DNA of 64,000 nt from Vicingus serpentipes. GTDB lineage: Bacteria > Bacteroidota > Bacteroidia > Flavobacteriales_E > Vicingaceae. Below, in pieces: positions 14,844-42,429 of the stretch. The stretch spans positions 275,501-339,500 of the forward strand of contig NZ_VOOS01000003.1 of NCBI RefSeq assembly GCF_007993035.1, written 5' to 3'. Numbering within the stretch: position 1 is the stretch's first letter; each line of letters begins with the position of its first letter. Made by a program: the position numbers and the translations under genes. Under the pieces are notes generated by a model. That model did not search any database and was not told the origin of the DNA. It saw only the letters and a program-made list of their open reading frames with translations.

Positions 14844-17594
14844 TTATAGCTCAGTATTAATGTTTAATTCTATTTCGTCATAAATAAATTTACCAGCAAT
14901 CTTTCCAACAATAGATTTAGAGCCATATTCAATTCCATAATCTGTTCTATCAATAGCAAAAGTAGTTTCTATATGAATTGCCCCCTCTTTTTGCTCAACA
15001 TAAACTGGGAACTCTATTCCATTAGTTACTCCTTTTATTGTTAATTCTGCAGTTACTTTGTACCAACCATCACTTTCTTCATCTTTAACTGAATTTATAA
15101 TCTTTATTGTTGCGGTAGGGTGAGCTTCAACTGCAAAGAAGTCATCATCTTTTAAGTGTCCTATTAAATTATCATTGTCTTCTCCAGGTTCGATATCTGT
15201 ACAAATCATTTTTGTCATATCTACAGTCACACTTCCTGAAAGTGCATTTTCTTCTAATTTAACAGTAGATTCAGAAATTGCAATTGTTCCCTCATGCATT
15301 CCTCCAACTTTTCTCCCTGTCCATTTTACAACTTTTTCATTTTTAATAACTGTAGGAGTATCTATAGTTTCAATTACTTCTTCAATAACAACTTCAGCTT
15401 CTTCTGCATGAGCATCATTTGTATGACCGCCTAATATAGGAGCTATAACTAATCCAATTAAACAAGTTAATTTGATTAAAATGTTCATTGAAGGTCCAGA
15501 AGTATCTTTAAAAGGATCACCAACAGTATCTCCAGTTACAGCAGCTTTATGAGCATCTGAACCTTTGTAAGTCATTTCACCATTAATTTCAACACCTGCT
15601 TCAAATGATTTTTTAGCATTATCCCATGCGCCACCAGCGTTGTTTTGAAAAATAGCCCAAAGAACACCACTAACAGTAACACCAGCCATATAACCACCTA
15701 ACATTTCAGCAACTAATAAGTTGTTATCAGGATAAACAATCATTCCAATAATTACAATTGCAATAGGGAAACCAATTGTTAAGATACCTGGCAACATCAT
15801 TTGTTTTAAAGATGCTTTAGTCGAAATATCAACACATTTCCCGTATTCAGGTTTACCAGTTCCTTCCATAATACCTGGAATTTCTCTAAACTGACGTCTA
15901 ACTTCTTCAACCATTTCCATTGCAGCTTTACCAACTGCATTCATTGCTAATGCTGAGAATACAACAGGAATCATACCTCCAACAAATAACATTGCTAATA
16001 CAGGTGCTTTAAAAATATTAATTCCATCAATTCCAGTAAATGTAACATAAGCAGCAAATAATGCTAAAGAAGTTAATGCTGCAGAAGCAATAGCAAAACC
16101 TTTACCAGTTGCAGCAGTTGTATTTCCAACTGAATCTAAAATATCTGTTCTTTCTCTAACGATTGGTTCTTGTTCACTCATTTCAGCAATACCTCCAGCG
16201 TTATCTGCTATTGGTCCAAAAGCATCAATTGCTAATTGCATAGCTGTAGTAGCCATCATTGCAGAGGCAGCTAAAGCAACACCATAAAATCCAGCAAAAG
16301 CATAAGAAGACCATATTGCAGCTGCAAATAGCAAAACAGAAGAGAATGTAGATATCATACCAGTTGCTAAACCAGCAATAATGTTTGTTCCTGCTCCAGT
16401 AGATGATTGTTGAACTATTTTTAAGATAGGTTTTTTACCTAAACCAGTATAGTATTCAGTAAATGAAGAAATACCAGCTCCAACAACTAATCCAACTAAT
16501 GTTGCATAAAATACTCTTAAAGAAGATATTTCTCTAGTTCCTTCACCAAAGAAATTCATTTGCATTGTTTCAGGTAACATCCAAGTTACTAAACCAAAAC
16601 AAGCACCTGCAACTAAAATAATAGAAGTCCAGTTACCAATATTTAATGCTTTTTGTACTTCAGCTTCTTTTGCATCGTTAGATGAAATTTTAACTAATAA
16701 TGTACCAATTATTGAAATAATAATACCAATACCAGCAATTGCCATAGGCAACAAGATAGGACCAATTCCGCCAAAAGCATCTTGAATTGCACCACCCATA
16801 TCTTGTATAACATAGTTTCCTAAAACCATAGCTGCTAATACTGTTGCAACATAAGAACCAAATAAGTCAGCTCCCATACCAGCAACATCACCAACGTTGT
16901 CACCAACGTTATCTGCAATTGTAGCAGGATTACGAGGGTCATCTTCAGGAATACCTGCTTCAACTTTACCTACTAAATCAGCACCAACATCGGCAGCTTT
17001 AGTATAAATACCACCACCAACTCTTGCAAATAAAGCAATTGATTCAGCACCTAATGAGAATCCAGCTAATGTTTCAAGAACAACAGTCATGTCAGCCGTA
17101 TTTGTCCAAACACCACCCATATATAAGTTAAAGAACAAAATAAAGAATGCAGTTAAACCTAAAACAGCTAATCCAGCAACGCCTAATCCCATTACAGTAC
17201 CACCACCAAAAGACACCTTTAAAGCGTTTGGTAAGCTAGTTTTTGCTGCTTGAGTAGTTCTTACGTTAGTTTGTGTTGCTATTTTCATTCCCATGTTTCC
17301 TGCTAATGCAGAAAAAATAGCTCCAATAATAAAAGCAACAATAATTAAATATTCAGTAGTAGGAACAACAAAAGCTACTCCAGCTAATACAATACTAGCA
17401 CCAACTACAAACATTGCAAGTAATTTATATTCAGCTTTTAAGAATGCTAATGCACCTTCATAAATATGATCGGCAATTTCTTTCATTTTACCATCACCAG
17501 CATCTTGCTTCATTACCCAACCTTTCTTTACCATCATGTAAAGAAGGCCTAATATTGCCATTGCTATTGGCATATAAATCATCATTGATTCCAT
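14844..17594 (-). CDS. hppA: Membrane-bound ion-pumping pyrophosphatase fused to a C-terminal YceI domain
   Basis: The enzyme hydrolyses cytoplasmic pyrophosphate and pumps H+ or Na+ out. Residues 1 to ~725 form the complete 16-helix pump, with [18 protein letters not shown] (195-212) and [19 protein letters not shown] (218-236) as the pyrophosphate/Mg site. [10 protein letters not shown] (490-499) has Ala494 and Gly497, the pattern of K+-dependent enzymes. The residue that is Glu in helix 6 of Na+-pumps is Gly246 (DLFGSY), while Glu184 sits in helix 5 (GAESIALF); this arrangement has been described for Flavobacterium-type H+-pumps. Residues ~750-916 are an in-frame YceI-like lipid-binding beta-barrel ([30 protein letters not shown]). 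Both termini of such pumps face the periplasm, so the fusion is topologically sensible. Length 916 against the usual ~700-800. Confidence 0.93.
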
Positions 17595-17758: not shown

Positions 17759-18736
17759 TTATTTATACATTACTTGCTTTACAGCTTTCATTATTTTATC
17801 TACGTTTGGTAAGTAAGCTTCTATTAAAGGTACTGAGAAACTCATTGGCACATCCGCACCAGTAACTCTAACTATAGGAGCATCAAGATAATCGAAAGCT
17901 TCTTTTTGAACTTTGAATGTTAATTCAGAAGAAAATGAACCTAAAGGCCATGATTCTTCAACAAATACCATACGATTTGTTTTCTTAACAGATTTTATTA
18001 CTGTATCATAATCAATAGGTCTTAAAGTTCTTAAATCTATTGTTTCAGCTTTAATCCCTTCTTTTTCTAACTCAATTGCAGCTTGGTTTACTAATTTCAT
18101 CATTTTACCGAAGCTAACAATTGTAACATCAGTACCTTCTTTAGTTACATCAGCTAATCCAATTGGAATAATGTATTCTCCTTCAGGAACAGGTCCTTTA
18201 TCTCCGTACATTTGTTCCGACTCCATAAAGATTACTGGATCATTATCTCTGATTGCAGCTTTTAATAAGCCTTTAGCATCATATGGATTAGATGGTTGTA
18301 TTACTTTTAATCCAGGGCAGTTTGCGTACCAATTCGAAAAATCTTGTGAGTGAGTAGCTCCTAATTGACCTGCAGCACCAGTACCACCTCTAAATACAAC
18401 TGGTATATTAAGTTGACCACCAGACATGTTGTACATTTTAGCGGCATTATTAATTATTTGATCAATAGCTACTAAAGAGAAATTCCAAGTCATAAATTCT
18501 ACAATAGGTCTTAATCCATTCATTGAAGCTCCAATTGCAATACCTGTAAATCCATTTTCTGCAATAGGAGTATCAATAACTCTCTTTGCACCAAATTCGT
18601 CAAGCATACCTTTACTTACTTTATAAGCACCATTATATTCAGCTACTTCTTCACCTAACAATATAATGTTTTCATCTTTGCGCATTTCTTCGCACATTGC
18701 TTCATTTAAAGCTTCTCTAAATTGAATTTCTCTCAT
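17759..18736 (-). CDS. pdhB: Pyruvate dehydrogenase complex E1 component, beta subunit
   Basis: The E1 beta subunit pairs with E1 alpha to decarboxylate pyruvate with thiamine diphosphate and pass the acetyl group to lipoamide. The 325-residue protein has the transketolase central/C-terminal layout: MREIQFREALNEAMCEEM, LGEEVAEYNGAYKVSKGML (Glu of the ThDP site), RVIDTPIAENGFTGIAIGAS (about 52-71), RGGTGAAGQLGATHSQDFSNW, and the C-terminal TIDLRTLRPIDYDTVI with VEESWPLGSFSSEL. Neighbours are not pdhA or the E2 gene, so the complex is encoded in scattered loci. The alternative, a branched-chain 2-oxoacid E1 beta, is less likely given the close match to the pyruvate type. Confidence 0.92.
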   Translation of the reverse strand: MREIQFREALNEAMCEEMRKDENIILLGEEVAEYNGAYKVSKGMLDEFGAKRVIDTPIAENGFTGIAIGASMNGLRPIVEFMTWNFSLVAIDQIINNAAKMYNMSGGQLNIPVVFRGGTGAAGQLGATHSQDFSNWYANCPGLKVIQPSNPYDAKGLLKAAIRDNDPVIFMESEQMYGDKGPVPEGEYIIPIGLADVTKEGTDVTIVSFGKMMKLVNQAAIELEKEGIKAETIDLRTLRPIDYDTVIKSVKKTNRMVFVEESWPLGSFSSELTFKVQKEAFDYLDAPIVRVTGADVPMSFSVPLIEAYLPNVDKIMKAVKQVMYK

Positions 18737-18787
18737 AGTTCTATTATTAAATAGTCAATCAAAATATTTAGTATAACTATTGGATGC

Positions 18788-18795
18788 CAAAATTA
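18788..18795 (-). promoter_or_regulatory. Probable -7 promoter element of pdhB
   Basis: Minus-strand TAATTTTG matches TAnnTTTG, 51 bases upstream of the pdhB ATG, in the divergent gap. Confidence 0.4.
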
Positions 18796-18853
18796 TAAAA
18801 TAAATGTAGTTTTTTAATGTTTTTAATTATTAAAGCTATTTTTGAATTATATA

Positions 18854-19792
18854 ATGTTAAGCAATAAAGAAAAATACAAGAAGTTTTGTGAGATAAACAA
18901 TGATGTTCCTTTGTTTATGACTTATAATTGGTACAACTTTTTGTTTAATGATGTTGATTGGAATGTTGTATTGATTGAGAAAGGAGAAGAACTCGTTGGG
19001 TTTTTACCATATATATTATCAAAAAAGAAAACTTTTAATGTGATAAATCAGCCTTTACTTACACCTTACCAGGGTGTTTGGTTGAATTATCCAAAAGATC
19101 AGAAATATGCTAATAAGTTAGGCTTTGAAAAAGAAGTTATAACTGACTTAATAAAACAATTACCGAAGACTGATTTATTTCAACAAAAATTTAGTCCACA
19201 ATTTACAAATTGGCTGCCCTTTTATTGGAAAGGATTTGAACAAACTACTAGGTATACCTATATTATAAATGATTTATCTAGTTTGTCAGATGTTTTTTCA
19301 AATTTTAAGGAAAACATTAGACGCGAAATTAGAAAGGCTGAAAAAAAGCTTACTATTTCAACTATTACTGATGTAGAGTTATTATATCAAATGAAGAATG
19401 AAATATATACTGCTAATAAATCTACCTACCCAATTTCGTTAGATTTATTAACAATGGTATATGAGTTTTGTAAAGTAAATAACTCTGGAGAAATTCTAAC
19501 AGCAAAAGATGAAGAAGATAATATTCATTCGATTCTTTTTTATGTGTGGGATAATTCTTCTGCCTATTATTTACAAGGAGTAACTGCCGATAAATTTAAA
19601 ACCACTGGTTCTATGAGCTTATTACTTTGGGAAGCTATAAGTCGTTCCGCTTCAAAATCCAAAACTTTTAATTTTGAAGGAAGTATGATAGAGTCAATAG
19701 AGCGTTATTTTAGAGCTTTTGGAGGAGTACAAACTCCTTATTTTGAAATAAAGAAAACAAGTTCTAAATTTTTAAAATTGTTGAATTATTAA
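18854..19792 (+). CDS. FemAB/BioF2-like GNAT acyltransferase
   Basis: The 312-residue protein resembles the GNAT-fold BioF2-like/FemAB group, which moves acyl or aminoacyl groups in cell-envelope or exopolysaccharide synthesis. Marks are FKENIRREIRKAEKKLTIS (about 152-170), the SILFYVWDNSSAYYLQG beta strands, TTGSMSLLLWEAI and FNFEGSMIESIERYFRAFGG (about 275-294), which is the usual C-terminal block. The frame is also open from a TTG four codons upstream, at 18842; the ATG at 18854 is preferred. It overlaps or abuts the following polysaccharide deacetylase on the same strand, which supports a shared role in surface polysaccharide or peptidoglycan modification. Confidence 0.8.
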   Translation: MLSNKEKYKKFCEINNDVPLFMTYNWYNFLFNDVDWNVVLIEKGEELVGFLPYILSKKKTFNVINQPLLTPYQGVWLNYPKDQKYANKLGFEKEVITDLIKQLPKTDLFQQKFSPQFTNWLPFYWKGFEQTTRYTYIINDLSSLSDVFSNFKENIRREIRKAEKKLTISTITDVELLYQMKNEIYTANKSTYPISLDLLTMVYEFCKVNNSGEILTAKDEEDNIHSILFYVWDNSSAYYLQGVTADKFKTTGSMSLLLWEAISRSASKSKTFNFEGSMIESIERYFRAFGGVQTPYFEIKKTSSKFLKLLNY

Positions 19793-20723
19793 AACTTTTT
19801 TTCAAAATATAGCTTTTAGAGGAGCTAAATATTTTAGTCAACGACAGTTAATTAGCTTGACTAGGCAAAAACTTATTTTGCCTTTTTATCATATTGTTTC
19901 TGATGAAACACCTGTTCATATTAAAAATTTATATGAAGCTAGAACTATAGTTGAATTCAAAGAAGATTTAGATTTTTTACTTGATAACTATAAACCTATT
20001 TCTTTAAATCAGTTAATTGAAATACATAAGACTAAAAACAAGCCAGCTGAAAATTATTTTCATTTAACATTTGATGATGGTTTAAAGGAGTTGTCAAGCA
20101 TAGTAGCACCTATTTTAAAAGAGAAAAACATCCCTGCAACTTTTTTTATAAATACACACTTCTTAGACAATCAAAACCTTTTTTATCGATTTAAGGAAAG
20201 TATTTTAGCTGAAAAATATGCAGCAAAAGGATTGTTAGATTTTAGTGCTGAAAATGAGAGGGAAATAGATGAGTTGGCAATTCTATTGGGTGAAAATTTT
20301 GAAGAATATTTAAAAAACAATCAGCCTTATTTAACATCAGAGGATGTTAAAAGTTTAATTGAAGATGGATTTACAATTGGTGCACATAGTAAAAATCATC
20401 CTAAATATTTTGATATTTCTATAGATGAGCAAGTAGCTCAAACAATAGAAAGTGTAGATTTTTTAGTTCAAAAATTTAACTTAGAATATAAGGTGTTTTC
20501 GTTTCCATTTACTGATGACGGAATAGGGGTAGAGTTTTTTAAAAAAATTGAAGGGAAATTAGATTTAACTTTTGGTACTGCAGGTTTAAAAAATGATGTT
20601 ATACCAAATAATCTTCAGCGTATACCAATGGAAGAAAACAAAAAAGGTATTGAAATAATTAAATCGCAATACCTTTATTATCTTTTAAAGATGTTTGTTG
20701 GAAAGAATACTGTTAAGCGGTAA
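19788..20723 (+). CDS. Polysaccharide deacetylase family protein, apparently with ATT start
   Basis: This is a carbohydrate esterase 4 (NodB-like) protein that removes acetyl groups from polymeric N-acetylhexosamine. Visible motifs are FHLTFDDGLKEL (catalytic base and metal Asp), FTIGAHSKNHPKYF (metal His pair) and VFSFPFTDDGIG. No ATG or GTG lies in frame before the domain. The first conventional codon is TTG at 19857, giving TRQKLILPFYHIVSDE. The frame upstream back to 19785 encodes KTFFQNIAFRGAKYFSQRQ, which looks like a genuine N-terminus, and ATT at 19788 overlaps the previous stop as ATTAA. I list the longer form; the TTG start would give 288 residues. The 3' end overlaps the convergent dehydrogenase gene by 11 bases. 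Confidence 0.8.
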   Translation: MKTFFQNIAFRGAKYFSQRQLISLTRQKLILPFYHIVSDETPVHIKNLYEARTIVEFKEDLDFLLDNYKPISLNQLIEIHKTKNKPAENYFHLTFDDGLKELSSIVAPILKEKNIPATFFINTHFLDNQNLFYRFKESILAEKYAAKGLLDFSAENEREIDELAILLGENFEEYLKNNQPYLTSEDVKSLIEDGFTIGAHSKNHPKYFDISIDEQVAQTIESVDFLVQKFNLEYKVFSFPFTDDGIGVEFFKKIEGKLDLTFGTAGLKNDVIPNNLQRIPMEENKKGIEIIKSQYLYYLLKMFVGKNTVKR

Positions 20724-41148: not shown

Positions 41149-42429
41149 CTAGTAGTTGTATTTATCTTTCCATTTATCTTTTAGGAAATTTCTAAAACTA
41201 GCTTCTTTAGGATTGTTCCCAGGTTCAAAAAGTGTAGTTCCTTTTATTTCATCTGGTAGATATTCTTGAACTTCAAAATTACCTTCATAACCATGAGAAT
41301 ATTTATAATTAGAACCGTAGCCGATATCTTTCATCAATTTGGTTGGTGCATTTCTTAAATGAAGAGGTATAGATAAATTACCAGTTTTTCGAACTAATTC
41401 TTGTGCTATATTAATAGCAGCATAAGAAGCATTACTTTTTGGTGAGGTGGCTAAATAAACAGCAGCTTGAGATAATATTATCCTTGCTTCTGGCATACCA
41501 ATTACATTTATGGCTTGAAAGCAATTATTTGCAATAACCAAAGCTGTAGGGTTCGCATTTCCAATATCTTCAGAAGAAAGTATTAATAGTCGTCGGGCAA
41601 TAAACTTAGGATCTTCACCACCTTCAAGCATTCGAGCTAACCAATAAACTGCAGCATTAGGATCACTTCCTCGTATTGATTTTATAAAGGCTGAAATAAT
41701 ATCGTAATGCTGGTCACCTGTTTTATCATAGCGAACCAAATTTTGCTGTACTGTATTTACAACGATATCGTTTGTTATTTCAATTATATCAGAAGAAAAA
41801 CTATTGATAACAATCTCTAAAGTATTCAATAACTTTCGTGCATCGCCACCAGACAGTTGCAGTAAAGATTCATATTCTTTAATTACTACTTTTTTCTTTT
41901 TAAGAAATTCGTCTTGAGTTAGGGCTATGTCAATTAATTTTAATAAATCTTCTTTGGTTTGTTCTTTTAGAATGTAAACCTGACAACGAGAAAGTAGTGC
42001 TGAGATTACTTCAAATGAAGGGTTCTCGGTAGTCGCACCAATCAACGTGATAGTTCCTTTTTCTACTGCTCCTAAAAGAGAATCTTGTTGAGATTTACTA
42101 AAACGGTGTATTTCATCAATAAATAATACAGGATTATTTGTGCCGAAAAATTGTTGTGATTTTGCTTTTTCAATTACCTCTCTAACATCTTTAACGCCAG
42201 AATTAATTGCACTTAGAGTATAAAAAGGTCGTTTTAAATAATTAGCAATTATGTTTGCTAAAGTAGTTTTTCCAACTCCGGGTGGGCCCCAAAATATCAT
42301 GGAAGGAATAATCCCTTTTTCGATAAAATTTCGCAAAGTACATCCTTCACCAATTAAGTGTTGTTGTCCAATATAATTTTCAAAAGTATTGGGTCTTAAT
42401 CGTTCTGCTAATGGAGTTAAATTGTCGAT
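41149..42429 (-). CDS. rarA: Replication-associated recombination protein A (RarA/MgsA) with no standard start codon
   Basis: RarA is an AAA+ clamp-loader-like ATPase that acts at stalled forks. Motifs are Walker A FWGPPGVGKTTLAN, Walker B VLFIDEIHRFSK, sensor 1 IGATTENPSFEV and the arginine-finger SALLSRCQVY, followed by the tetramer domain (SIRGSDPNAAVYWLARMLE). The first standard start codon is TTG at 42336, but that would drop the conserved N-terminus. Upstream in frame the sequence reads TPLAERLRPNTFENYIGQQ then HLIGEGCTLRNF, an unmistakable RarA opening. Between it and the in-frame stop at 42438-42436 there is no ATG, GTG or TTG; the best candidate is ATC at 42429, giving 426 residues, the normal length. 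A start-codon sequencing error is the main alternative. Confidence 0.88.
   Translation of the reverse strand: MDNLTPLAERLRPNTFENYIGQQHLIGEGCTLRNFIEKGIIPSMIFWGPPGVGKTTLANIIANYLKRPFYTLSAINSGVKDVREVIEKAKSQQFFGTNNPVLFIDEIHRFSKSQQDSLLGAVEKGTITLIGATTENPSFEVISALLSRCQVYILKEQTKEDLLKLIDIALTQDEFLKKKKVVIKEYESLLQLSGGDARKLLNTLEIVINSFSSDIIEITNDIVVNTVQQNLVRYDKTGDQHYDIISAFIKSIRGSDPNAAVYWLARMLEGGEDPKFIARRLLILSSEDIGNANPTALVIANNCFQAINVIGMPEARIILSQAAVYLATSPKSNASYAAINIAQELVRKTGNLSIPLHLRNAPTKLMKDIGYGSNYKYSHGYEGNFEVQEYLPDEIKGTTLFEPGNNPKEASFRNFLKDKWKDKYNY

Follow-up and report, generated by a model that had tools for sequence, protein, structure and literature searches.

AUU is an established start codon for infC and pcnB, and it lowers the expression of pcnB (PMC1780047). 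The E. coli infC begins with AUU (PMC1780047) and controls itself, and the S. aureus infC begins with AUA and has a predicted extended Shine-Dalgarno pairing (PMC13009471). AUU has also been proposed for lepA of Borrelia burgdorferi and Bacillus licheniformis, where full-length lepA needs it (PMC1780047). Starts mapped in S. aureus include AUU for cvfC1 and AUA for ccpN and citZ, with conservation for cvfC1 and ccpN. Their yield in poor medium is about 10% of that from AUG, and extended Shine-Dalgarno pairing is predicted for cvfC1 and ccpN (PMC13009471). Ribosomes of the Bacteroidia do not recognise Shine-Dalgarno sequences (PMC9976891). Gene pairs overlapping as ATGA or TGATG can be coupled by termination-reinitiation, and only 10% of such overlaps in Bacteroidetes carry a Shine-Dalgarno motif (PMC6728339).

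We examined a polysaccharide deacetylase gene of Vicingus serpentipes with a putative AUU start, as in infC, pcnB and lepA. Unlike infC, it has no Shine-Dalgarno sequence that we could see, and its start codon overlaps the stop of the upstream gene; a stop/start overlap is not described for pcnB or lepA in the available part of PMC1780047. With cvfC1 and ccpN it shares a near-cognate codon, but those genes have the predicted extended pairing, to which ribosomes of the group hosting the deacetylase are blind (PMC13009471, PMC9976891). Like the ATGA and TGATG pairs it has sequence common to the start and the upstream stop, but the overlaps named in the available part of PMC6728339 use ATG, and the term AUU is absent there. 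The terms AUU and infC both gave no hit in the F. johnsoniae profiling paper (PMC6847099). Titles and abstract beginnings in the open-access literature, outside which most subscription papers lie, yielded no AUU starts in Bacteroidota and no AUU stop/start overlaps. AUU starts as such are known; what appears to be new here, judging from sequence, is a conserved AUU start with no visible Shine-Dalgarno sequence, placed at a stop/start overlap and with natural counterparts that carry ATG.

The window, as we call the whole stretch of 64,000 nucleotides analysed, comprises positions 275501-339500 of contig C3 in a draft genome of 2,918,678 bases (G000). A leader or promoter region at 18750-18853 on the plus strand precedes the two-gene unit and is divergent from the gene at 17759-18736, which we take to be pyruvate dehydrogenase E1-beta-like. 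The first gene of the unit, 18854-19792 on the plus strand, matches the FemAB/GNAT-like profile PF13480 and has its stop, TAA, at 19790-19792. A TGA at 19782-19784 closes the deacetylase frame upstream, and the frame opens at 19785 with ATT ATT AAA ACT TTT TTT CAA, so that ATT is present twice, at 19785-19787 and at 19788-19790. The last base of the second ATT is the first base of the FemAB TAA, a one-base overlap at 19790 reading ATTAA. Counted from this ATT the deacetylase spans 19788-20723 on the plus strand (311 residues). It scores 59.7 bits against PF01522, above the curated cut-off of 23.1, and thus belongs to that family. From 19785 on, no in-frame ATG, GTG or TTG occurs before the TTG at 19857-19859. 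A first-pass annotation had described the overlapping ATT and had named the TTG as the first standard start, and both descriptions hold.

To see how the start compares among relatives, we searched 46 genomes of the family, of which 34 had a deacetylase match at E ≤ 0.001. The closest set consists of 20 full-length loci (L002-L021, with the window as L002) from the genera g1, g4 and g13. They align over their whole length, and the identity of the relatives to the window is 48-62%. A FemAB relative lies directly upstream in 16 of the 20, window included, and the 15 relatives in this linked group are 48-60% identical to the window. The codon aligned with 19788-19790 is ATT in 15 of the 16 linked loci and ATC in one (L007), an invariance that is little informative in 12 of them, where the third base is fixed by the T of the overlapping stop. 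The first-pass annotation had proposed aligning the N-termini of deacetylases found directly after FemAB, and this alignment places ATT or ATC in one column in 16/16. A near-cognate codon therefore heads a conserved N-terminus that lacks a canonical start, with L008 as an exception in that a TTG three codons downstream of the column could serve as start. The start also overlaps or adjoins the upstream stop in the manner of coupled pairs. In 12 of the 16 loci the two form ATTAA, in L011, L015 and L016 the ATT lies 4 nt after the FemAB stop, and in L007 the ATC lies 3 nt after a TAA that is in frame with the deacetylase. One of these distances, in L005, was placed by hand as its FemAB is broken. 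The codon before the column varies (AGC in L004, AAC in L008, CTC in L011) and is ATT in only some loci. For this reason 19788 is the better start candidate on the alignment, and ATT 19785-19787 a less conserved alternative.

Translation could instead begin at the TTG at 19857, leaving the stretch before it (19791-19856, plus strand) untranslated. This TTG is the first canonical codon in the frame, and TTG holds the start column of another gene in the window, rarA, in 12 of 19 near-relative loci. In the relatives, however, the first canonical codon falls elsewhere. Counted from the start of the match it comes after 69 nt in the window, 42 in L004, 90 in L006, 189 in L014 and 216 in L021. L015 and L016, near copies of each other on the same contigs as L080 and L081, have no ATG, GTG or TTG within the first 120 codons, and their catalytic TFDDG motif comes after 97 codons; in G006, the genome of L015, the first canonical codon is number 210. 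For most of these species, starting at a canonical codon would mean losing conserved N-terminal sequence.

The stretch upstream of the TTG also evolves as coding sequence. We compared 18 of the 20 rows in a codon alignment, dropping the near copies L016 and L019 and keeping the rows without FemAB. Over the 22 codons from ATT to the TTG-equivalent position, single-base codon differences in frame were 558 synonymous and 559 non-synonymous, summed over all row pairs, which are not independent. In frame the synonymous share was 0.50, and the two other frames gave 0.26 and 0.08; the 18 rows contained no stop in frame, against 49 and 39 stops in those frames. Conservation is weaker in the extension than in the remainder of the gene: pairwise differences at codon positions 1, 2 and 3 were 0.45, 0.35 and 0.55, against 0.34, 0.22 and 0.53 from codon 61 on. 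An AlphaFold2 model built from the 20-row alignment had a mean pLDDT of 93.8, with block means of 88, 95 and 96 over residues 1-30, and helices were predicted at residues 2-13 and 18-25. A start at the TTG would cut away the first predicted helix and most of the second. Frames that open well ahead of a canonical start are, by themselves, not rare in the window's own genome: 101 of 354 scored genes (459 kb) have their first canonical start at least 8 codons after the frame opens. By summed hexamer score the deacetylase stretch ranked 6th of those 101 and rarA 1st, so the stretch is unusual because it looks coding and not because its frame is open. Taken alone, the extension has a coding score of 7.5, and stretches ahead of ordinary ATG genes reach 9.4. 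We regard initiation at the TTG as highly improbable, and 19857-19859 is probably an internal Leu codon. The earlier view that the upstream stretch is a real N-terminus is thereby supported, and the loss of conservation across 19788-19856 that would have spoken against it was not found. The deacetylase very probably starts at the AUU inside the FemAB stop, and that the product would be the complete 311-residue enzyme and not a TTG-started fragment is well supported.

The absence of an ATG might also reflect a sequencing error or a pseudogene, the ATG having been lost in assembly. The relatives are draft genomes, and in G001, of the same genus as the window, the frame changes inside FemAB. Against this, ATT stands in 15 FemAB-linked loci, window included, from assemblies of different species, and the enzyme frame is unbroken with its catalytic motifs kept, in agreement with the first-pass view of an intact catalytic domain. 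We find an assembly error or pseudogene scarcely credible, and the alignment makes a sequencing or annotation slip very unlikely as the cause of the AUU start. In the G001 locus itself (L005, G001:C45:20157-21087), FemAB is split into two frames and the deacetylase is intact. Three other loci (L067, L078, L079) have two tandem FemAB copies ahead of the deacetylase.

No start codon would be needed if a programmed +1 frameshift at the FemAB stop produced a FemAB-deacetylase fusion. The deacetylase frame does open just ahead of the FemAB TAA, and 14 of the 15 linked loci whose FemAB is unbroken agree in the relative frame of the two genes, as a +1 shift would give. In L007, however, FemAB terminates in the deacetylase's own frame, and a +1 shift would not join them. 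The distance between start and stop is variable (overlap, or 3 or 4 nt after), we saw no common slippery sequence by eye, and the two genes are separate open reading frames in 16/16 linked loci. In the four loci of the closest set without FemAB (L003, L010, L012 and L020) the protein begins at the same column or one codon earlier. A prfB-like programmed frameshift, with a relative frame of +1 and an upstream frame always present, was rejected on L007 and these four loci. A fusion by frameshifting is thus very improbable, and the AUU at 19788-19790 remains the preferred start.

In the four loci without FemAB the leader, which aligns with the window's 18750-18853, and the divergent neighbour are both kept, and the deacetylase follows the leader directly; elsewhere in their genomes FemAB matches are weak or none. 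On a protein tree in which many forks are open, the FemAB-less label needs three changes, at least two of them on well-supported branches, and for this reason FemAB was probably lost more than once. An ATG is found at the start column in L012 and one codon earlier in L010 and L020, and L003 keeps ATT. This suggests that AUU is tolerated mainly when the ribosome arrives from FemAB (n=4, with one counter-case). The ATT of L003 would mean that coupling to FemAB is not strictly required.

We also examined 58 further loci (L085-L143 without L136), mostly from other Bacteroidota groups, of which 54 were resolved. Positions were counted relative to TFDDG, with the window's ATT at -93 and its TTG at -70. 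An ATG lies 84-98 codons before TFDDG in 35 of the 54, and homologues hence do not all start at the TTG-equivalent position, the outcome that had been named as evidence against the AUU start. Of the rest, 7 have only GTG or TTG in that range, 10 have canonical codons only at -83 to -71, and 2 have none in these ranges. Of these two, L120 carries an ATG farther upstream at -103, and L103, a deacetylase from a Flavobacteriaceae MAG, has ATC (L103:212-214) exactly where L086, L107 and L114 have ATG.

The first-pass annotation had also attributed a near-cognate start to rarA, and this proved sound, as no canonical start lies ahead of the RarA N-terminus and the inferred start codon is ATC at 42429-42427 on the minus strand (42427-42429). 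Matches to rarA were found in 46/46 genomes; 30 loci were fetched and 29 placed, L058 being cut. In the 19 loci from g1, g4 and g13, the three nearest genera (L036-L054 among them, window included), the start column always holds a start-capable codon: ATC in 4 (window included), ATT in 1, TTG in 12, GTG in 1 and ATG in 1. It was never TTA, CTN or ATA in these 19/19 loci; for comparison, TTG accounts for 138 of 701 Leu codons in the deacetylase rows. Three of the 12 TTG loci have an ATG directly before. The remaining 10 placed loci have an ATG nearby.

A scan of the whole genome for conserved N-termini extending past the first canonical start to an ATT or ATC had been proposed as well, and the part of the window's own genome covered here added infC (ATA) and a DUF4294 gene (CTG). 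A first scan by coding score covered 354 genes of G000, 300 of G001 and 323 of G006, and the best 22 of each were inspected; in G006 the deacetylase ranked 1st. Other coding-like G006 frames without an early canonical start are C9 255892-256455 and 248331-249869 (L176) and 15276-16343 (L164). A second scan covered 726 genes in 859 kb of the window's own genome, 339 of them with the first canonical start at least 5 codons in. Among the best 32 inspected, infC ranked 1st, the DUF4294 gene 7th, rarA 8th and the deacetylase 16th. The other candidates in the top 32 were set aside as antisense-looking or unexplained frames or as having an obvious ATG just downstream. The DUF4294 gene (L277:3960-4628, minus strand) has a signal-peptide-like N-terminus. 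It first gave the impression of an AUU start and was rejected as such, since the alignment column holds CTG where many near relatives have TTG, suggesting a CUG start. An ortholog pair scan of samples from three genomes flagged 54 genes among 318 with reciprocal partners, rarA being unpaired there. By eye most of the 54 were antisense shadow frames or chance similarity ahead of ordinary starts, and the sole case accepted was the deacetylase, in all three genomes. Near-cognate starts in the window's own genome thus look real but rare, and scans of this type would miss many. In a YbjQ-like gene (PF01906) an in-frame TAA occurs early (L144:16781-16783), and the start and N-terminal residues closely precede it without a change of frame; the gene may be broken, the TAA an error, or the stop read through.

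The infC gene is essential. It had matches in 38 of 46 genomes, and 25 of the 30 loci fetched (L234-L263) were resolved. In 18 of these 25 the IF3 core is reached without any canonical start, and in the other 7 the stretch contains a canonical codon. By eye the 18 start with ATA (16) or ATC (2), and GGAGG stands shortly ahead in 14 of the 18, although Shine-Dalgarno use is rare in the phylum. The window genome's own infC (L271:8703-9269, G000:C1:148703-149269) reads AGGAGGATTTAGTC ATA GCT, has a GGAGG-type Shine-Dalgarno sequence, and reaches its first canonical codon 98 codons into the frame. Because an essential gene lacks a canonical codon until then, this genome must, on its sequence, use near-cognate codons elsewhere too.

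By eye the window sequence has no GGAGG-like stretch before 19788, which places the deacetylase outside the Shine-Dalgarno-led class. Termination-reinitiation at the FemAB stop is the most likely route. A ribosome ending FemAB at the UAA would remain on the mRNA, meet the near-cognate AUU one base back and restart, with fMet placed at AUU 19788-19790 within AUUAA. Reinitiation of this kind would need neither a Shine-Dalgarno sequence nor an AUG, and the deacetylase yield would be low and tied to FemAB. We infer the use of the AUU codon, the coupling, the low yield and any IF3 dependence from the arrangement of the locus. A more tentative idea, which we hold as possible and somewhat doubtful, is that AUUAA has been retained as a signal for coupling, the ribosomes of this phylum being indifferent to Shine-Dalgarno sequences. 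Efficient initiation would then be reserved for ribosomes coming directly from termination on the upstream gene, which would tie the enzyme to its partner and maybe place it under IF3 control, and where the partner is missing the start would usually be AUG.

Gene finders limited to ATG, GTG and TTG would truncate the window deacetylase, would yield, for L015 and L016, a fragment that lacks the catalytic motif, and would mis-start rarA and infC in the window's own genome. A near-cognate start that has persisted down to about 50-60% protein identity, in the apparent absence of a Shine-Dalgarno sequence, would let one ask in a natural system whether ribosomes become less strict about the start codon after termination, and the loci without FemAB that carry ATG would be ready-made controls.
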